Shown: piece by piece, positions 4,332 through 28,303 of the stretch
Layout of the letters: every line of letters starts with the position of its first letter
Position numbering within the stretch: position 1 is the first letter of the stretch
Notes under the pieces: model-generated
The model's input: the letters and a program-made list of their open reading frames with translations, nothing else
What the model was told of the DNA's origin: nothing
Database searches by the model: none
NCBI RefSeq assembly: GCF_000025325.1
Contig: NC_013743.1
Location: 1,302,001 to 1,366,000 of the forward strand
DNA: 64,000 nucleotides
Direction: 5' to 3'
DNA from: Haloterrigena turkmenica DSM 5511
GTDB lineage: Archaea > Halobacteriota > Halobacteria > Halobacteriales > Natrialbaceae
Program-made: the position numbers and the translations under genes

Positions 4332-4754
4332 TCAGACGAGTTCCTGCCCGAGAGAGAATTCGTCCACAATCCGGCGGAGGTCGGCTGGCTCGATCGGTTT
4401 CAGGACGTACGCATCGGCCCCCGGCTGTTCCGATTGCAGGTCATGGAACTCTGACAGGACCCCTGTGAGCACAACGACGGGAATGTGTTGCAGAGACGCG
4501 TCACGCTTGATCGCTTGCAGCACCGTTCTCCCGCTCGTGTTCGGGAAGTACCAATCAAGTAAGATCAGGTTCGGTCGAGGTGCATCGCCATAGTCGCCCC
4601 GTCGATGGAGGAAATCTACGGCGTCGTCACCGTCGTTCGCAACGTAGTGCGTCCCATACATGCCGGCTTCCGTAAACATCTCGTGTGTGAGTCGAACGTC
4701 CCCTGGATTATCCTCGATTAAAAGAATGTCACCCACATACGTTGGGTCGCTCAC
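4332..4754 (-). CDS. CheY-like single-domain response regulator
   Basis: A 140-residue stand-alone receiver domain. It has the acidic pair in LLIEDN (residues 11-16), the phospho-acceptor Asp67 in LLDWYFP, Thr97 in VVLTG and Lys119 in YVLKP. The length and the DWYFP context resemble the Rcp1-type receivers that haloarchaea pair with phytochrome-like or PAS histidine kinases. No output domain is present, so it probably relays phosphate or acts through protein contact. No kinase lies next to it. A TATA-like element sits 22-31 bases upstream of the ATG, which suggests a leaderless transcript. Confidence 0.9.
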   Translation of the reverse strand: MSDPTYVGDILLIEDNPGDVRLTHEMFTEAGMYGTHYVANDGDDAVDFLHRRGDYGDAPRPNLILLDWYFPNTSGRTVLQAIKRDASLQHIPVVVLTGVLSEFHDLQSEQPGADAYVLKPIEPADLRRIVDEFSLGQELV

Positions 4755-4775
4755 ACCAGAGCCTTGTGTTGGCTA

Positions 4776-4785
4776 ATTATAAATT
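4776..4785 (-). promoter_or_regulatory. TATA-like box of the receiver gene
   Basis: On the minus strand this reads atttataatt, centred about 26 bases before the ATG at 4754. That is the usual distance for a leaderless haloarchaeal transcript. Confidence 0.5.
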
Positions 4786-4844
4786 TTTGTTTCGCGGCTT
4801 CTCGGATTTCAGATTGTTTGTTATATAGGAATGTATGAGGGAAT

Positions 4845-5125
4845 CAGATCAGTATCACACCGATATGTTCGGAGCCGTAGTCGCTGCTCAGTACAGCGGT
4901 CGCTATCATGTCTCCGCTTTCCAAGAGTACTCAGAAATCCTGATGAAAATCACCCGAAGGTCTTTAGTTGCTCGCCAAATCGGAACTAATGCGGTGGGAG
5001 GTGCCTCTTACACCCATTTCCGACGTACCTTTCCGTCGACGCTTGGATAGAGCGGTGGGATTGCTCTGTACACACGCGAGCGGATCGACCCCTTCGAGCG
5101 GAAGACGACGAGCCGTCTCGACGGC
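4845..5125. repeat. Diverged repeat element, copy 1
   Basis: This stretch aligns with 11690-11955 over most of its length. The best block (about 4987-5025) shares gcggtgggaggtgcctct and a following catttcc. Flanking blocks (tcgctatcatgtc against cgatatcacgtc; cccttcgagcggaag in both) keep the same order and spacing. Reading frames are not conserved across the two copies, because stops and indels differ, so this looks like a non-coding element or a mobile-element remnant rather than a shared gene. Copy 1 lies upstream of the receiver gene. Confidence 0.6.
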
Positions 5126-5644
5126 GTTCCCCGTGGGGTGGCGGCCGTGACGAGCGTGGTGTTGGTTCGGTCCTGACTCCGCGAGCTGCTTCGTCGCGCT
5201 TGCTGACCGCAAAGTCCGTCCACCCGCAGGAGGGGCCGTCGTCCCTCCCGATCGGAACCGGCGCTCGCGCTTCGAATGCTGGGATACCGGGGCCGCACGC
5301 TGAACACTGAACGTCCGTGCTCATCGTTCTCACGGGGGCTTTGACCGTCTCTCGTCATAGGGTGGCTCCGAATGCAGAGGGCAGGACAGTAGCACTGCAA
5401 CCCAGTGGGCGCCCGCCCCTGTCCGTGGCGGGCACCGGGCCGGCGTGACGCGCTCTAGGCCAGAGCGCGGCTCTCGCGGGCGGGCCAGAACTGGCGACCG
5501 CCACCACCACGTCTCCGTGACTGGCGCCTGTGACACCGTGTCCCGCCGCCACCAGGGGGGAGCTTACCCCCGGACGGTCGCCCGCGACGCCTGGCACGAG
5601 ACACCAGCAGCCACCAATATTTATGATCATCGCCAGCGAATACC
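5126..5644. other. Intergenic region, no confident gene
   Basis: About 520 GC-rich bases with several long open frames but none with convincing protein composition. The end near 5614-5625 is A+T-rich (atatttatgatc) and probably holds the promoter of the 66-residue gene. Confidence 0.4.
5614..5624 (+). promoter_or_regulatory. TATA-like box
   Basis: The sequence aatatttatga lies about 25-30 bases before the GTG starts at 5645 and 5651. This spacing supports a leaderless transcript for the small gene. Confidence 0.4.
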
Positions 5645-5845
5645 GTGGTAGTGGCTGACGAACACCGCGCGACCGAGATCACCGCTGCGCAACTGCGGGA
5701 GCTCCTCGCGACGATTCAGGAAGTAGACGAGCAACTCCCCGACCCCCTCAGCCTGAACGACGCGATCGCCGAACTCGAGCAGACCCACGAGCTGTATACG
5801 CGGCTCGCGCCCCCGAACGGGGAAGGACCCGGCCGCGGGGACTGA
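5645..5845 (+). CDS. Small acidic hypothetical protein
   Basis: A 66-residue protein, or 64 residues if the second GTG at 5651 is used. It is helical and acidic, with an amphipathic core (LRELLATIQEVDEQL and LNDAIAELEQ). The composition is typical of real haloarchaeal proteins, and a TATA-like box sits at the correct distance. No family was recognised. It stands alone between two gene-free stretches of the accessory island. Confidence 0.55.
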   Translation: MVVADEHRATEITAAQLRELLATIQEVDEQLPDPLSLNDAIAELEQTHELYTRLAPPNGEGPGRGD

Positions 5846-6254
5846 GCGCCCGTCCCTGTGAGCCATCCCCCAGCCTGGCCGCCGTTGCTCGACGACAGCT
5901 CGTGTGCGTCTGGGGTCGCCGATCACGACCCGCCGGGGCGAAGCCAGCGGTCGCGCCCCGCCCGATTGAGCAGTGGGGAACCGGGCGGGGCAGCGATCGA
6001 AGCGGTGGCGGCTGGCGAGGACGCCGGGAGACCGATCCGCGCCGGTGGCGGGCGGGTCCGACCGTCGCAGGGTGACCGGTCCACCGACGACGCGGGGCTG
6101 GTCGCCCGCCACGTAGTGCGGGCGACTCGTGTACGGGGGGCTCGCTGCGACCAGCGCCAGCCACCGCGGGAGCGGACCCAACGGACGCCACTCGAGCGGC
6201 CAGGCGACCGAGACGGCTGTGGGTACCAGCGATCGGTCGCCGCAAAAGAGGCGC
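5846..6254. other. Intergenic region, no confident gene
   Basis: About 410 bases. Open frames on both strands have low-complexity Arg/Pro-rich translations typical of GC-rich shadows. Apart from the repeated block at 5901-5972, nothing is supported. Confidence 0.4.
5901..5972. repeat. Short repeated block, copy A
   Basis: This block resembles 28331-28401: 20 bases are identical (5911-5930 and 28341-28360) and related sequence lies on both sides. On the minus strand both read VVIGDP in the same frame, so it may be a shared remnant of one gene family. No intact gene is present here. Confidence 0.45.
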
Positions 6255-6923
6255 CTACTCGCTCGGTTTTGTCCCAGTGAAGTCGCATCGTGCATCGAAC
6301 TCGAGCGACGAGGCGACAAGGGTCCGATAGGCGCGACGAAACCGTTCGGAGAGTGCTTGATGTGAGATGTCCAGTTTCGCTGCGAGTTCTTCTAACGAGA
6401 TCTCCCGCGGGATCTCGAAGTAGCCATAGGTGAGCGCAGCAGTGAGCGCTTCATACTGCGCAGGTGACAGCCCGAGGTCATCGGCAGTGGTCGTTGTGAG
6501 TGATCGGATTTGCGTAATCTCAATCTGAATATCACGCGCTGCCAGTCGCTCATAGACACGACTGGCGTTCTCACGGGCCGGAAACCGCAGTCGGATCGTC
6601 CACATGCCAGCTCGCGCTGACGCCGCGAGCATCGTACCGCCTTCTTCAGCAACCAGAGAAAAGTTCTCTGCGATTTCGTTTGAAAAGTGGATGGTGTACA
6701 ACCTCCGCGCTTCGTCACTCGTAATGAGCGAATGGTCTCTGACGGTCCTGTCCTCTCTCAGGGCGGCGTTCAGTGCTGCGCGGTCCGCACCGCTCATCCA
6801 CATCCCAAACTCATCGGCGGCAATCACTGGCTCGATCTCACAGACGAGTGAGGGAACTGCGTGAAAGGTAGCGCCGAGTGCGGTATCACTGGCTGGAATG
6901 CGGAACTCAGCGATCGTTGCCAT
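6255..6923 (-). CDS. Bat-like transcription regulator (HTH_10)
   Basis: A 222-residue protein of the haloarchaeal bacterioopsin-activator type. Residues 1-150 form the strand-rich sensory half seen in this family (starting ATIAEFRIP). Residues 165-215 form the helix-turn-helix, recognisable from LSPAQYEAL, the GYFEIPRE segment and DISHQALSERFRRA. Such proteins are DNA-binding regulators and often respond to redox, light or metabolite signals. No PAS or GAF domain is attached. A TATA-like ttatta lies about 27 bases upstream of the ATG. Its targets cannot be read from the window. Confidence 0.88.
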   Translation of the reverse strand: MATIAEFRIPASDTALGATFHAVPSLVCEIEPVIAADEFGMWMSGADRAALNAALREDRTVRDHSLITSDEARRLYTIHFSNEIAENFSLVAEEGGTMLAASARAGMWTIRLRFPARENASRVYERLAARDIQIEITQIRSLTTTTADDLGLSPAQYEALTAALTYGYFEIPREISLEELAAKLDISHQALSERFRRAYRTLVASSLEFDARCDFTGTKPSE

Positions 6924-6945
6924 AGTTCCTCTCCTGATATACTAC

Positions 6946-6957
6946 CACTACTAATAA
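6946..6957 (-). promoter_or_regulatory. TATA-like box of the Bat-like gene
   Basis: An A+T-rich stretch reading about agaattattagt on the minus strand, 23-34 bases before the ATG at 6923. Confidence 0.4.
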
Positions 6958-7098
6958 TTCTCAGTGACCGCTCTGAATACTTTATCTATCCTTGTACTGT
7001 ATAATAGAAAATAAAAGACGTGAGTAGAGACCGAGAGAAGGTACGAGTCGTGCCTATCAAGCCGGCTTCGAGTACCCCCTCTCGGGGACCCGGAGGCT

Positions 7099-7431
7099 TC
7101 AGAGGAACTCCTGCAGTCGTAAGTCCGAGAGGTCATAGGTGAGCGACACGGTGTCGTCGTCGTGAGAATACACGAGGAGGTTCGCGTCTTCCATCCGCGG
7201 GAGATGAGAATGATAGAGATCGAGATAGACCTCGTGTTCCTCGTTCCGTGGCAGGTGGTGACGGGACTCGGTATCGTGTTCCAATCGTGCGACTTCGGCA
7301 GCTAGATCGGCCAGTGCCATCGGCGTTTGATACCGTTCGAGACAGTACAACGCGAATCGCCGCCGTTCGTGCGAGAGAATCGTCTTCGAAACCGGATGTT
7401 CTTCACTGACTTGTGTGGGAGTCTCTATCAT
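7099..7431 (-). CDS. DUF7344-like winged-helix protein
   Basis: A 110-residue protein with the pattern of the haloarchaeal DUF7344 winged helices: ILSHERRRFALYCL, then ALADLAAEVARLE, then the LYHSHLPRMEDANLL motif and a short wing (DDDTVSLTYD). Two more members lie in this window (13141-13533 and 45615-45974). The family is presumed to bind DNA, with no known ligand. The ATG at 7431 was chosen because the upstream in-frame extension is low-complexity and a TATA-like box sits 26-36 bases before this ATG. Confidence 0.85.
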   Translation of the reverse strand: MIETPTQVSEEHPVSKTILSHERRRFALYCLERYQTPMALADLAAEVARLEHDTESRHHLPRNEEHEVYLDLYHSHLPRMEDANLLVYSHDDDTVSLTYDLSDLRLQEFL

Positions 7432-20856: not shown

Positions 20857-21429
20857 CTACCCTTCACCCCGATTGATCGCGGTGAACGTCTCGACCATTC
20901 GCTCGAAATCCTCCCGCGGCACCTCCAGCCCCTCGCGAAGTTTCGCGACCCGACGTTGCATGCGGACGTACTCGCTCGACTCCTCGAGCTGTTCGGGCGT
21001 GTGTTCGGCCTCGAGCACCGAGAGTTTCGCCGTGAGGCTGAAGAACTCCGAGAGCGGATCGTCGTAAGACGCGGCGGTCACCTGTTGTTCGATTGCCGCG
21101 AAGAGATCGTCCTTCTCGATCGGCTTACACAGGTAGTCGTCGAACGGCATATCGACGATATCGAACCCGGGATTCACGGCCGTTACCATGATGACCTGGC
21201 AGTCGTGTCCCCGATCGCGGATCTCCGTTAACACCTTGTCGCCGGAGAACGGCATCCGTCGATCCAGCAGTACCACGTCGACGGTGTCGTCCATCTCGTG
21301 GAGGCACTCCTCGCCCCCGTACGCCGTCCGGACGTCGTCGTACCGCTGCCGAAGACGGAGCGCGTACGCGTCCGCCACCTCGCGCTCGTCGTCGACGACG
21401 AGCAGTGTCGGGTTCTGGTCGTGGCCCAT
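20857..21429 (-). CDS. HalX-type response regulator
   Basis: A 190-residue protein. The receiver domain covers residues 8-118, with the acidic VVDDE cluster, phospho-acceptor Asp56 in LLDRRMP and Lys102 in YLCKP. The HalX helical output domain, a haloarchaeal coiled-coil module, covers 120-188. HalX proteins have no DNA-binding motif and probably act by dimer contacts. The gene converges on one kinase and diverges from another (142 bases apart), so either could phosphorylate it. Confidence 0.92.
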   Translation of the reverse strand: MGHDQNPTLLVVDDEREVADAYALRLRQRYDDVRTAYGGEECLHEMDDTVDVVLLDRRMPFSGDKVLTEIRDRGHDCQVIMVTAVNPGFDIVDMPFDDYLCKPIEKDDLFAAIEQQVTAASYDDPLSEFFSLTAKLSVLEAEHTPEQLEESSEYVRMQRRVAKLREGLEVPREDFERMVETFTAINRGEG

Positions 21430-21571
21430 GTTAACGAATGCCCTAGAGAGGTTCGCCTGTGACCGAGTTATAGCTTTCGTGCGCGGCCGGTCGCGGGTGT
21501 CCGACGACGTTCGTTGCGTGCGCTTAAGTGCGCGTACCGAGTACTCTGTTAATTGTTACCACGAGTCAGTG

Positions 21572-23296
21572 ATGAGAGTCCGATTACGAACGAAATTCGT
21601 CGTCATCCTCGTCGTGATCACGCTCGTACTGAGCGGGACGGTTCACTGGACGCTCGAGTCGTACAAACGCGACGTCGTCGACGACGAACAACAGCGAACC
21701 GACGAGACGGCCTCGTTGGTCGCCGAGCAGATCGACGCGACGATCTGGGAACACCGCGATCGGATCGGGTTGGTCGCGTCGCGGCCCGAGGCTCGGCAGT
21801 TCGATCGGAGCGGTCCGTTCCTCGACGCGTTTCTCGACAACTCTCGATTCTACTCGGCGCAACTCGTCGACGCCAACGGAACGGTCGTCGATTTCCGCGG
21901 CTCCGTTACGGCAGGGACGAGACGATCAGTGATCGGATCCGACCGAAGCGGAACGCCGTACGTGGAGCGTGCGCTTCGGGGCGAAACGTACGTGAGCGAC
22001 GTCGAATACGCCGAGCGAGCCGACAGGCCCGTTCTCGTATTCAGCGCGCCCATACTGGACGGCTCGGGGGTTCGGGGCGTCCTCGTGGGTGCCATGTACC
22101 TCGATCGGCAGACGATCTTCGACGCGATCCCGCCGCTCGAGACGAGTTCGCAGACGGTCACTATCGTCGGAGACGGGGTGGTTCTCAACGAGAACGAGCG
22201 GACGTTCGACGAGGGGATCGAAAGCTCCTCGACCGTCGAGTCGACCGGGTGGGAGGTCACGGTCACTCGAGATCGGACGCTGCTAGAGGATCGATTGGAT
22301 CGGTTAGCCGCGCTCCAGACGCTGGTGCTGGTCATCGTGGTGCTCGTCATGGTCGGGTTCGGGTACTGGCAGTACGCCGTGAGCCTCCGCCAAACCGAGC
22401 GGTTACTCGACGGATTCGACCGACTCGGCGAGGGCGACTACGACAGTACGGTGTCGCTGCGCGGCGGCGCCGAGTGGGAACGGATGAGCGACGGCTTCAA
22501 CGAATTGGTGGCGACGCTGCGAGCGCGCGAGTCGGAACTCCGAGAGCGGCGGCAGCGCCTCGACGTCCTCTATCGCGTGTTGCAGCACAATATCCGCAAC
22601 CGAATGAGCATCGTTCTGAATTACGCGGATCTCATCACCGACGAGGCCGCGGACGAAACGGTCGTCGGCGCGGCGGAGACGATCCACCGGACCGGGCGCG
22701 ACATCACGGGCTTGAGTCGGAAGGCGCGACAGATGAAAAACGCGCTCGAGGCCGATCCCGATCGGAGGCCCGTCGACGTGGCCTCGCTCGCGGCCGACGC
22801 GGTCGCGGAGCTTCGCGAGGAATACCCCGACGTTACCGTGACCGCGTCGCTGCCGGACGAGGCGTGGGCGATGGCGCTTCCCTCAGTGCGGCTGGCAGTC
22901 GAGAACGTCTGCGAGAACGCCTGCGAACACAACGACAGCGCCGATCCGCGCGTCGAAATAGCGGTGACCGCGACGGGCCCCGAACCGGACGTCGACCGCG
23001 ATCCGGCCGACGAGAACGGCGGGCGAGTTCGCATCGAGGTGGCGGACAACGGCCCCGGAATTCCGGAACAGGATCGCGCCGCGATCGATGAGGGGCGCGA
23101 GACGGCGCTCGAGCACGGGAGCGGGCTCGGCCTCTGGCTGACCTACTGGGTGGTCGATAACTCCGGCGGAACGCTCCGGTTCGACGACAACGACCCGCGC
23201 GGGTCGATCGTGATCATCGACCTCCCGCGAGCGGCGCCCCGACGCGGCGACGCAAACGCCCCGGAACCGTCGAGCCACGTCGATGACCGACCCTGA
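21572..23296 (+). CDS. Membrane histidine kinase with extracellular Cache-like sensor
   Basis: A 574-residue sensor kinase. Transmembrane helix 1 is at 8-27. An extracellular Cache/CHASE-like domain covers about 30-245, with the typical VDANGTVV and PVLVFSAPI strands. Transmembrane helix 2 is at 249-270. A HAMP region follows at 272-325. The phospho-acceptor is His339 in LQHNIRNRM, the N box is VENVCENACEHN, G1 is DNGPGIP and G2 is SGLGLWL. Extracellular Cache domains usually bind small molecules directly or through a binding protein. The next gene, 35 bases on, encodes an exported solute-binding protein, which may deliver the ligand. The ATG at 21572 was chosen since it opens directly into helix 1. 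Confidence 0.92.
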   Translation: MRVRLRTKFVVILVVITLVLSGTVHWTLESYKRDVVDDEQQRTDETASLVAEQIDATIWEHRDRIGLVASRPEARQFDRSGPFLDAFLDNSRFYSAQLVDANGTVVDFRGSVTAGTRRSVIGSDRSGTPYVERALRGETYVSDVEYAERADRPVLVFSAPILDGSGVRGVLVGAMYLDRQTIFDAIPPLETSSQTVTIVGDGVVLNENERTFDEGIESSSTVESTGWEVTVTRDRTLLEDRLDRLAALQTLVLVIVVLVMVGFGYWQYAVSLRQTERLLDGFDRLGEGDYDSTVSLRGGAEWERMSDGFNELVATLRARESELRERRQRLDVLYRVLQHNIRNRMSIVLNYADLITDEAADETVVGAAETIHRTGRDITGLSRKARQMKNALEADPDRRPVDVASLAADAVAELREEYPDVTVTASLPDEAWAMALPSVRLAVENVCENACEHNDSADPRVEIAVTATGPEPDVDRDPADENGGRVRIEVADNGPGIPEQDRAAIDEGRETALEHGSGLGLWLTYWVVDNSGGTLRFDDNDPRGSIVIIDLPRAAPRRGDANAPEPSSHVDDRP

Positions 23297-23331: not shown

Positions 23332-25209
23332 ATGCCACTGGACACCACAGTCGGCGGGGACGGGATCGATCCCGGCGGCGACGCAGTGGCCAGACGACGG
23401 CTTCTGAAGGCGGTCGGGGTCGGAACGACGGTCGGCATCGCCGGCTGCGCGCGCGACGGCGATGACGAGGATGAAGACGACGACAGCGTCGACGCGGAGT
23501 TGATCGGTCCCGACGGAGCACGAGTGGAACTGATACTCGCGTGTATCGAGGGGAACGACGCGGTGGAGACGGCCGCCGACATCATCGCGGCGGAGATCGC
23601 GGATCTCGGCGTCGCAGTTACCCTCGAGCGCGTCAGCTACGATCGGCTCCTCCGGCAATACGTGCGAAACCGGTACCTCGGAGACGGCGACCCCGAGTGG
23701 ACTGCGGGACCGAACAACGCCGGACCGCGCGAGGAAACCGCGAGCGAATCGGCCTGGGACCTCATGTTCGGGGTCGCGTTCAACACGTATCCTCGAACGC
23801 CCGCTGCGATCGACGCATTCTGGCTCGAGCGAGCGCCGACTAACTACTACGGGTACGTTCCCGAGGCCGACATCGAGTCGCGGCTCGAAGCGTTCCGCAC
23901 GACGACCGATCCGGACGAGCGGCGAGAGCCGATCGCCGAGGTCCTCGGCGCGTTGAGCGAAGAGCAGCCGGTGAATTTCCTCGCGATGTCGGACGACGTT
24001 ATCGGTTACCGACGCTCGGTTCGCGGTCCGGTCGAAGCCTTCGGGGGAAACTGGGACAGCGCGACCTGGTACGTGGACGAGGACGGGAACGAAGGTGGCC
24101 CCACCGCCTCCGACGAGTGGGTCTGGGGCGTGGAAAGCGAGGCCGAAGGGTTGTACTTTCCCGAGCACACCGACAGCAGGGCCACCGCGCGGATCGGCCT
24201 GACCTTGGACGGGGCCTACGACGTCGACGAAAACGACACCGTCCGACCGCTGTGGATGGACATCACCGACACCGGCAGCGGACAGGTATACGTCTGCGAA
24301 CTCCGGGACACCCTCCGATGGGGCGACGACTACGGCCGGATGACCGCCGAGGACTGGGTGTACCAGATCGAGAATGTCCACACCATCGACGGCGGACGTG
24401 ACCACCCCTGGAACGAGGACGCCCCGCCCTCGAACCGGGTCGACGATTGGGCGACGGTCGAAAACGTCGAGCAAACGAGCGAGTCCGAGTTCCAGCTCGA
24501 ACTCGAGTCGGTCAACCCCGACTTTCCGCTGGAACCGGTTCTCTGGGGATCGTACTGCGCGCCGAAGGAACTCTACGAGGCGCACGTTCCCGACGCCGAC
24601 GCGCTCCGCGCGAGCGACGCGTTCGCCGAGCTCAGCTTTACGGGGAACCTCGGCCCGTACACGCTCGAGCGATGGGATCGCACGCGGGAGTTCGTCGCCG
24701 CGCGCAACGAGGAGTACTACATGCGCGAACACGTCGACGACGTGGGCGACGCGTGGCGCGACGCGCCGTATTTCGAACGCTACAGCTACCGAGTGGTCGG
24801 GGACCGAGCGGACCGCCTCGAGGCGCTCGCGGACGGGGAGCTCACGGCGACGTCGGTCCCGCCGGAGCGCTACGCGGATATTCGAGGGACCGAGGCCGTC
24901 GAAATCTACGAGATTCCGCAGCCGTTCCTGACGATCGTCGCGTACAATCAACGCGCAAACGGGTGGGCGGAACTGCGGACCCGCGAGGTCCGACAGGCCC
25001 TCTCCATGGCCGTCGAGAAACCGGCGATCACCGAGGACGCGTTCCGCGGACTCGCCGAGTGGACCCACACGTTCCAACCGCGGTGGTCGAGTTGGTACGA
25101 CGACTCGCGGATCACGCCGTTCGGGGTCGACGAGTCGTACGACAAGGACCGAGCCCGCGAGTTGCTCGCGGAACACACGACCTCCGGGTACGAGTACGAG
25201 CCCGCGTAG
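23332..25209 (+). CDS. Exported solute-binding protein, family 5, with permuted domain order
   Basis: A 625-residue lipoprotein-like protein. The N-terminus has a twin-arginine-type signal (ARRRLLKAVG) with a GCA site at about residues 38-40, then an acidic linker. The body belongs to the peptide/nickel (SBP_bac_5) binding proteins, but the usual C-terminal lobe (EIADLGVAVTLE, WDLMFGVAFNTYPR, EEQPVNFLAMSDD) comes first, at about 60-245. The usual N-terminal lobe (MTAEDWVYQIENV, GPYTLERWDR, VRQALSMAVEK) follows at 275-600. The protein ends at the RARELLAEH motif, which normally sits mid-protein. No permease or ATPase gene is nearby; the partner is the membrane kinase just upstream. The substrate is probably a peptide or another small solute. 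Confidence 0.88.
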   Translation: MPLDTTVGGDGIDPGGDAVARRRLLKAVGVGTTVGIAGCARDGDDEDEDDDSVDAELIGPDGARVELILACIEGNDAVETAADIIAAEIADLGVAVTLERVSYDRLLRQYVRNRYLGDGDPEWTAGPNNAGPREETASESAWDLMFGVAFNTYPRTPAAIDAFWLERAPTNYYGYVPEADIESRLEAFRTTTDPDERREPIAEVLGALSEEQPVNFLAMSDDVIGYRRSVRGPVEAFGGNWDSATWYVDEDGNEGGPTASDEWVWGVESEAEGLYFPEHTDSRATARIGLTLDGAYDVDENDTVRPLWMDITDTGSGQVYVCELRDTLRWGDDYGRMTAEDWVYQIENVHTIDGGRDHPWNEDAPPSNRVDDWATVENVEQTSESEFQLELESVNPDFPLEPVLWGSYCAPKELYEAHVPDADALRASDAFAELSFTGNLGPYTLERWDRTREFVAARNEEYYMREHVDDVGDAWRDAPYFERYSYRVVGDRADRLEALADGELTATSVPPERYADIRGTEAVEIYEIPQPFLTIVAYNQRANGWAELRTREVRQALSMAVEKPAITEDAFRGLAEWTHTFQPRWSSWYDDSRITPFGVDESYDKDRARELLAEHTTSGYEYEPA

Positions 25210-27050: not shown

Positions 27051-27788
27051 TTAGCTCTGATCGATGACGGCGGTGTTCTCCTGATCGACGTCGGCGCTGT
27101 TGTTCTTGCCGTCCTGATCGACGTCGGCGGTGTTGCGCTGGTCGACGCTGGCGTCGTTATTCTTGCCGTCCTGATCGACGAACGCCTTGTTGCGCTGGTC
27201 GACGTCGGCGTCGTTGTTCTTGCCGTCCTGATCGACGAACGCCTTGTTGCGCTGCTTCACGTCAGCGTCGTTATTCTTGCCGTCCTGATCGACGAACGCC
27301 CTGTTACGCTGGTCGACGTCGGCGTCGTTGTTCTTGCCGTCCTGGCCGACGAGCGCCCTGTTACGCTGGTCGACGTCGGCGTCGTTGTTCTTGCCGTCCT
27401 GGAAGACGCTTGCATCGTTTCGCTGGTCGACGTCGGCGTCGTTGCAGTGACCCTTCTGGAAGACACCGGCGTCGTTGGACTGGTCGACGTCGGCATCGTT
27501 ATTCTTGCCGTCCTGGAAGACGCCCGCATCGTTTCGCTGGTCGACGTCGGCGTCGTTACAGTAGCCCTTCTGGAAGACGTCGGCTCGATTCCGCTGCTCG
27601 AGATCGGCGTCGTTCCCGAAACCGTTCTGGAAGACGTCGGCGGCGTTGGACTGATCGACGTCGGCCTCGTTGCAGTAGTCGGTGTACTTACAATCGCCCG
27701 GGGACGCGAGCGCACTGCCGCTCGCCAGGGCACCGATGAGTGCCACGGCGAACACCAGTGAAACCGTAGTGCGTAGGGTTCGTTTCAT
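27051..27788 (-). CDS. Curlin-like repeat protein, candidate functional amyloid
   Basis: A 245-residue secreted protein. The signal peptide covers residues 1-28 (VFAVALIGALASGSALA), followed by a 10-residue linker. Residues 39-245 are 11 tandem units of 19 residues, the last one short. The unit is NNDADVDQRNxAxVxQxGK, and across the unit junction it fits the bacterial curlin pattern Q-x-G-x-x-N-x-A-x-x-x-Q exactly (for example QDGKNNDADVDQ). In the first five units the junction residues include Cys or Gly and Phe-Gln; later units are almost pure QDGKNND. Each unit can form a strand-turn-strand rung, as in CsgA. In bacteria such proteins build curli fibres in biofilms. Asp content is much higher than in CsgA, as expected in high salt. 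No CsgG-type exporter is needed without an outer membrane, and none is present. Confidence 0.82.
   Translation of the reverse strand: MKRTLRTTVSLVFAVALIGALASGSALASPGDCKYTDYCNEADVDQSNAADVFQNGFGNDADLEQRNRADVFQKGYCNDADVDQRNDAGVFQDGKNNDADVDQSNDAGVFQKGHCNDADVDQRNDASVFQDGKNNDADVDQRNRALVGQDGKNNDADVDQRNRAFVDQDGKNNDADVKQRNKAFVDQDGKNNDADVDQRNKAFVDQDGKNNDASVDQRNTADVDQDGKNNSADVDQENTAVIDQS
27054..27674 (-). repeat. 11 tandem 57-bp coding repeats
   Basis: The curlin-like gene contains in-frame 57-bp repeats, most alike in the gtcgtt-ttcttgccgtcctg segment on the plus strand. They are direct tandem copies without spacers, so this is not a CRISPR array. Copies in the middle are nearly identical at the DNA level, which points to recent expansion or conversion. 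Confidence 0.9.
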
Positions 27789-27800
27789 GGTCGTATCTTC

Positions 27801-27818
27801 GGAGTTCCTTCGAACTCC
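27801..27818 (-). promoter_or_regulatory. Hairpin just before the curlin-like start
   Basis: The 7-bp inverted repeat ggagttc-cttc-gaactcc lies 13 bases upstream of the ATG at 27788. It would fold in the leader RNA near the ribosome entry region, or could be an operator. Its function is untested. Confidence 0.4.
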
Positions 27819-27898
27819 ACGTGGATCCAGTCCCGCATCGTTCGAAGAACCGGGCTCTCAATAGTCGAAGCGACGGTCTCGCGGGCACCCCTAGATAT

Positions 27899-28303
27899 CT
27901 AGTCCCGCCCGATGCGACTCGAGCGACGCGTAGAATCGGCGGCGTCGAGCGTTCCACCCCGCGGAATCGCGCCCGATTCGGACGAGTCGCGCTCCCCTAG
28001 ATACTGAGCATCGTCACCTCGATCGCCGGTTGTGGTATTGAGAGCCGCGTTCCTCGAACGGAAGGGTCCTTGGTCACGGTGGAGGTAGCGCGCTGCTCCC
28101 GGGGCGCGCGGCGGCGAACCACACTCCACTGTCGACGCCGACTCGAAAGTGCCAGCCGGCTCCCCTTCGTTGGTCCAATCGTGGTTCTTCCGGATATCCG
28201 TGAGCGCATAGTAGGGCTTCCATCCATTCCGAACGAGATGGAAGTGACCGTCGAACTCGTGGTACTGGAACCGCAGGAACTTCCGCGCGCTCACTGAACT
28301 CAC
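27899..28303 (-). pseudogene. Possible remnant gene upstream of the curlin-like gene
   Basis: A GTG-started frame whose first 45 residues look like true protein (RKFLRFQYHEFDGHFHLV, GWKPYYALTDIR), but whose remainder does not. A preceding short frame (28314-28400) ends MGCYRRLLPGEVVIGDP-like and a stop that overlaps this GTG. No family was recognised. It may be a truncated gene or a short real protein with a degenerate tail. Confidence 0.35.

Follow-up and report, generated by a model that had tools for sequence, protein, structure and literature searches.

Described curli systems and the archaeal protein

Descriptions of curli assign the system to bacteria that possess an outer membrane. The published curlin unit consists of the sequence N-$-Psi-$-Psi-$-Q-X-G-X-X, present twice, and has a mean length of 23 ± 5 residues with variants (PMC10192328). 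The survey of Sleutel et al. (2023) was confined to bacterial RefSeq. For the Archaea, Dueholm et al. (2012; PMC3521004) mentioned “a single archaeal protein” in which curli-like repeats recur at regular spacing; it is unnamed in their text and was placed among the non-curli hits without analysis. This was very probably the curlin-repeat protein of Haloterrigena turkmenica described here or one of its orthologs. That one sentence is the prior record of an archaeal curlin-like protein, and our literature search found no paper naming curlin together with Haloterrigena. The Methanospirillum sheath protein, reported to be an amyloid protein of a new type (PMC6242892), is an archaeal extracellular amyloid-like assembly (PMC10593813). 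Biofilms of Haloferax stain with amyloid dyes, with no proven gene (PMC4180959).

The window analyzed here, a stretch of 64,000 nucleotides of the H. turkmenica DSM 5511 genome, contains a gene for a curlin-repeat protein of 245 amino acids (27051..27788, minus strand), which was identified by its open reading frame (ORF), the Pfam family PF07012, a phmmer match to the structure 8C50, and orthologs in three congeners. By inspection, residues 1–28 (27705..27788, minus strand) form a putative Sec-type signal peptide, MKRTLRTTVSLVFAVALIGALASGSALA, with an AxA-like site between SALA and SP; this segment is nearly identical in all four species, and its pLDDT in the predicted structure is below 50. 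An N-terminal linker, SPGDCKYTDYC (residues 29–39; 27672..27704, minus strand), contains a pair of Cys residues that is invariant in the four species. It is followed by 11 tandem 19-residue units of the form N$A$V$Q-R-N$A$V$Q-DGKN (27054..27671, minus strand), supported by TRF and a pattern search; unit 11 is partial with 16 residues, and TRF determined a period of 57 bp for the array on the DNA level. A signal followed by 11 units of 19 residues, as an earlier note on this DNA had described the protein, is thus what was found, save that the signal was recognized by inspection and the last unit is incomplete. The absence of further domains, also claimed there, agrees with the Pfam scan of the protein, which recognized no domain other than the curlin repeat.

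Pfam Curlin_rpt (PF07012) matched the protein in ten stretches with a score of 152.8 bits (cut-off 20.7, E 2.1e-45). As a control, the 19 unit columns were permuted nine times, keeping period and composition, and the resulting arrays were rescanned. None of the nine permuted arrays matched curlin, compared with 144.9 bits for the original array. A phmmer search of PDB sequences retrieved as best match 8C50 (E 2.1e-16, residues 38–237), which is subunit R15.5 of Pontibacter korlensis curli (PMC10192328), and the best tblastn match in a plasmid collection was a protein on a plasmid of Indioceanicola profundi (41% over 195 residues, E 1e-16). This plasmid carries three consecutive curlin-repeat ORFs at 4666–7207 in an almost unannotated record; their repeats are of the canonical two-arc type, unlike the 19-residue archaeal unit. 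The NCBIfam models of CsgB and CsgA gave 95.6 and 63 bits, respectively, both under their own family cut-offs, and the Pfam curlin repeat is common to the archaeal protein and E. coli CsgA/CsgB. The proposed relationship to the curlin family is supported by the PF07012 and 8C50 matches together with the blank permuted controls, and judged by its sequence the protein is a genuine curlin-repeat protein in an archaeon.

The composition of the mature protein is strongly acidic, with 48 Asp in 217 residues and a net charge of about −26. Together with the likeness of DQDGKNND to calcium loops and the match of 4fl4, a glycoside hydrolase family 9 chain with a dockerin-like aligned segment (E 0.31 in the PDB sequence search), this could be read as an Asp-rich calcium-binding repeat of the RTX, thrombospondin type 3, or dockerin-like kind that merely resembles curlin. 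However, no Pfam match to RTX, thrombospondin type 3, or dockerin was obtained at E values up to 1, as opposed to 2e-45 for curlin, and the conserved columns of the unit are the inward N, A, V, and Q rather than Asp, so that such a chance resemblance is highly improbable. The Asp-rich faces had also been interpreted as an adaptation to high salt. This interpretation is weakened, since the non-archaeal 8C50 carries the identical strings NDADVDQDG and NDADIDQDG and Asp-rich faces are therefore not special to halophiles.

The 19-residue unit and its predicted fold

Each unit reads N-D-A-D-V-D-Q, R, N-x-A-x-V-x-Q, D-G-K-N. The exact fit to Q-x-G-x-x-N-x-A-x-x-x-Q stated in the earlier note holds at all ten unit junctions, where this motif spans arc 2 and bridges adjacent units. 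At these junctions Q15, N1, A3, and Q7 never vary and G17 occurs in 10 of 10 cases; the second strand motif, N$A$V$Q following QR, is conserved equally well. Both strand motifs are intact and arc 2 (DGKN) is a canonical XGXX, and arc 1 has been cut from four residues (XGXX) to one between Q and N (about two if counted R/S-N), which is why the unit comprises 19 rather than 22 residues. Like the class-CS protein CsgA R15.5 (8C50), the archaeal protein has inward N-Psi-Psi-Q in both strands, an XGXX arc 2, and NDADVDQDG strings. It differs by its 19-residue unit, one-residue arc 1, and archaeal host from 8C50, which has a two-arc kernel with XGXX in both arcs and 15.5 repeats. The unit thus departs from the typical, non-obligatory form of 22–23 residues in which each motif is followed by an XGXX-type arc; given the published spread of lengths with variants, the 19-residue unit marks a variant and the homology stands. 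The assignment as a curlin repeat was accordingly retained and refined, in that the unit is shorter than the bacterial one of ~22–23 residues and the second motif is conserved as well. The short arc 1 had been overlooked before, as had two partner genes that invariably accompany the curlin gene, the fact that only some species of one genus carry it, and the archaeal remark of 2012.

Orthologs in the three congeners have 9, 9, and 10 units, and the unit number of the four species (9, 9, 10, 11) differs by whole units. In the combined 39 units of the four species, no substitution occurs in the inward N, A, and Q columns, and the V column contains only V, I, or L; the Ala columns employ two or three synonymous codons, and outward positions vary freely. 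This combination of invariant inward columns, synonymous Ala codons, and variable outward columns points to core columns that are held by purifying selection and are not merely young. Searching the window with a strict DNA pattern of the double motif gave nine matches versus zero expected, all of them inside the curlin gene. A two-unit periodicity of the outward residues was considered and rejected, as identity drops steadily with lag and has no peak at lag 2.

The structure was predicted with AlphaFold2 (AF2) from a four-sequence alignment. The best model is all-beta (pLDDT 70, pTM 0.68), and the remaining four models reached a pLDDT of 26–41. Foldseek returned nothing significant for the best model (best E 0.24), and 8C50 was absent from its matches. 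Re-alignment of the Foldseek list by VIA gave Z scores of 13–16 to parallel beta-helices, with about one residue per residue in the alignments to left-handed helices with 18-residue rungs such as GlmU. As Foldseek did not list 8C50, the assignment as a solenoid rests on VIA and the sequence. With one usable model of five, the all-beta prediction and the VIA alignments favor a beta fold over a helical or disordered protein, as had been anticipated.

Most units in the best model consist of strands of 7–8 residues that are interrupted at DGKN and between R and N. These strand breaks, together with the residue-for-residue alignment to GlmU-type helices, are the reason why a beta-solenoid with 19-residue rungs is predicted here, with modest confidence. 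Two units, by contrast, form unbroken 17-residue strands (96–112 and 115–131), and since a canonical arc cannot be accommodated within QRN, the two motifs of a unit (a and b) might fuse into one 15-residue alternating strand. Two units would then make up one 38-residue rung of a double-width solenoid with XGXX arcs at both ends, and the fibre would have roughly twice the width of curli. The alternation of inward and outward residues is indeed strict and unbroken from N1 to Q15, and the exact spacing of 38 between Cys39, Cys77, and Cys115 also fits, but the additional Cys pair beyond the linker is confined to one species. Moreover, the R-N breaks in most units of the model, the VIA alignments that keep pace with 18-residue rungs, the change of unit number in single steps (9, 9, 10, 11), and the suitability of Asn for a tight two-residue arc all argue against the double width, which we consider quite improbable.

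Partner genes, conserved block, and distribution

Downstream of the curlin gene and on the same strand follow two genes, P2 and P3, at intervals of 97 and 191 bases. Of the 61 genomes searched, each of the two genes is present in the four that bear curlin and in no other. P2 (26177..26953, minus strand) encodes 258 amino acids with a single hydrophobic N-terminal segment, a likely signal anchor, and is a putative membrane-anchored protein. Its structural model contains two predicted 7-stranded Ig/FN3-like domains with one Cys pair each (mean pLDDT 57); Foldseek matched them to tandem FN3 domains with a probability of 0.99, and VIA gave a Z score of about 9 to single Ig-like domains. P2 is our best candidate for an anchor, nucleator, or chaperone of a fibre. 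P3 (25458..25985, minus strand) encodes 175 amino acids and had no Pfam match. Its N-terminus, SKRSVLKAVGTLLSG, resembles an export signal, possibly Tat-like, and P3 is thus a putative small exported protein.

P2 was also considered as a CsgH homolog, because NCBIfam listed CsgH and csgH follows the curlin gene in bacteria, as seen in Rhizobium, Aeromonas, and Bosea. This assignment was rejected: P2 scored 10.8 bits where the CsgH cut-off is 35 (E 0.4; best ortholog E 0.046), the signal vanished when the P2 domains were scanned apart, the profile–profile probability was 0.1, and a five-sequence profile placed P2 within decoy noise. Both P2 domains align to the five-sequence CsgH profile at the same GxSxS loop. 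The CsgC/CsgH chaperones have one seven-stranded Ig-like domain, and two are predicted for P2. The resemblance is weak and serves as a lead only.

The region directly upstream of the curlin gene (27789..27897, minus strand) is conserved in the alignment of the four upstream regions and contains the palindrome CTAGATATCTAG plus TATTGAGAGCCCGGTTCTTCGAACG. Two near-duplicate elements, each composed of TATTGAGAGCC...GTTC.TCGAACG and a CTAGATATCTAG or similar box, are located at 27822–27901 and 27994–28095, and the outer type lies directly before the curlin gene in two congeners. The duplicated elements are possibly the site of a regulator. At the right boundary of the conserved block (27897–28100) the far side differs between H. 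turkmenica and the three congeners, which indicates a rearrangement end just upstream of the curlin gene. A 134-amino-acid ORF at 27899–28303 weakly matches the beginning of DUF7845 (E 5.5e-05, under the cut-off) and is possibly a gene remnant.

The same block, with a nucleotide synteny of ~95–96%, includes three further genes. A response regulator (20857..21429, minus strand) combines Response_reg and HalX domains and has orthologs at 96–98% only in curlin-bearing species; a dCache histidine kinase (21188..23296, plus strand) was assigned by domain match and nucleotide synteny, its start not being fixed; and a family 5 solute-binding protein (SBP_bac_5; 23332..25209, plus strand), convergent with P3, has close orthologs restricted to curlin-bearing species. 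The link of these three genes to curlin is positional only, and from its position the HalX protein is a possible regulator of the curlin gene.

Of the 391 genomes sampled from 86 genera of the class, four carry the repeat. All four belong to one genus, in which four of six sampled species carry the repeat and two do not, and the 325 sampled genomes of the phylum yielded no further carriers. The restriction to part of one genus suggests an acquisition from bacteria, with arc 1 being shortened afterwards. A search of 569 sampled bacterial genomes from two classes did not reveal a donor with a 19-residue unit; only isolated single matches occurred, in three of these genomes. The strict bacterial pattern for a one-residue arc 1 admitted only Ala and Val in the core, and bacterial units with other cores would therefore be missed. 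A viral or plasmid origin was rejected, as no relative was detected in IMG/VR contigs or phage records and the plasmid matches were to bacterial curlins only.

A candidate fibre without a CsgG pore

The genome searched, of which the window is a part, has 5,440,782 bases on seven contigs. No match to CsgG (PF03783) was obtained in it, and positive controls were found in four named genomes, in line with the earlier expectation that an archaeon would not need this pore. A second, CsgB-like curlin subunit was not detected either, since all five genome matches to PF07012 lie inside one gene. Whereas the csg system of E. coli has five repeats of about 23 residues, CsgG, CsgE, CsgF, and CsgC, and two subunits, neither CsgG nor a second curlin was found in the archaeal genome. 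Because no CsgG was found, this is not a standard curli system.

The explanation that we favor, and regard as somewhat probable, is an extracellular curlin-repeat protein that forms a thin parallel beta-solenoid and polymerizes into curli-like fibres or a surface coat. One 19-residue unit would form each rung, whose eight inward residues (N-A-V-Q, N-A-V-Q) would build the same steric zipper and ladders of Asn and Gln that bacterial curlins of class CS have, and solenoids would join end to end. The protein would presumably be exported by the general Sec route straight across the single membrane, so that no CsgG-type pore would be needed. P2, tethered by its hydrophobic segment and with the two Ig-like domains facing outward, may anchor, nucleate, or chaperone the fibre, and P3 may be an exported accessory protein. 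The acidity could oppose lateral packing of fibres, and salt would screen the charge. Fibre formation is considered likely; the four weak AF2 models, the blank Foldseek search, the missing second subunit, and the failure of P2 as CsgH were counted against the favored explanation.

A curlin-type solenoid might also exist without polymerizing, as a monomeric rod or spacer, an adhesin, or an ion-binding layer protein on the cell surface. The ends could then be capped by the C-terminal unit, which differs outwardly (QENTAVIDQ), and by the N-terminus with its two conserved Cys, and the net charge of about −26 as well as the lack of a detected nucleator or Csg machinery would agree with a monomer. 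Yet the terminal units retain the full inward motif, polymerizing CsgA proteins likewise end in full or half repeats (PMC10192328), and arrays with different numbers of units are tolerated, as they also are in curlins. A monomer appears unlikely to us. Within the polymerizing alternative, a more specific scheme can be put forward tentatively, as a possibility below even chance: a pore-free three-gene archaeal curli system, in which a salt-tolerant fibre with a re-engineered rung (short arc 1 or 38-residue double width) would be held and chaperoned at the single membrane by the tethered tandem Ig-like protein in the role of CsgB/CsgC/CsgG.

The archaeal protein is a shortened curlin variant, encoded in a small gene block that is specific to its lineage; the bacterial export pore was not found. 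If the fibre reading is true, curli-like fibres would exist in a different domain of life, and a genuine archaeal curlin would reveal which parts of the curli pathway exist only owing to the outer membrane. A natural curlin with a minimal arc would be a means of testing what the fold needs. It would also provide a specific kind of gene to seek behind the amyloid-like staining of haloarchaeal biofilms, although the carriers of the repeat in the sampled genomes all belong to one genus other than Haloferax.
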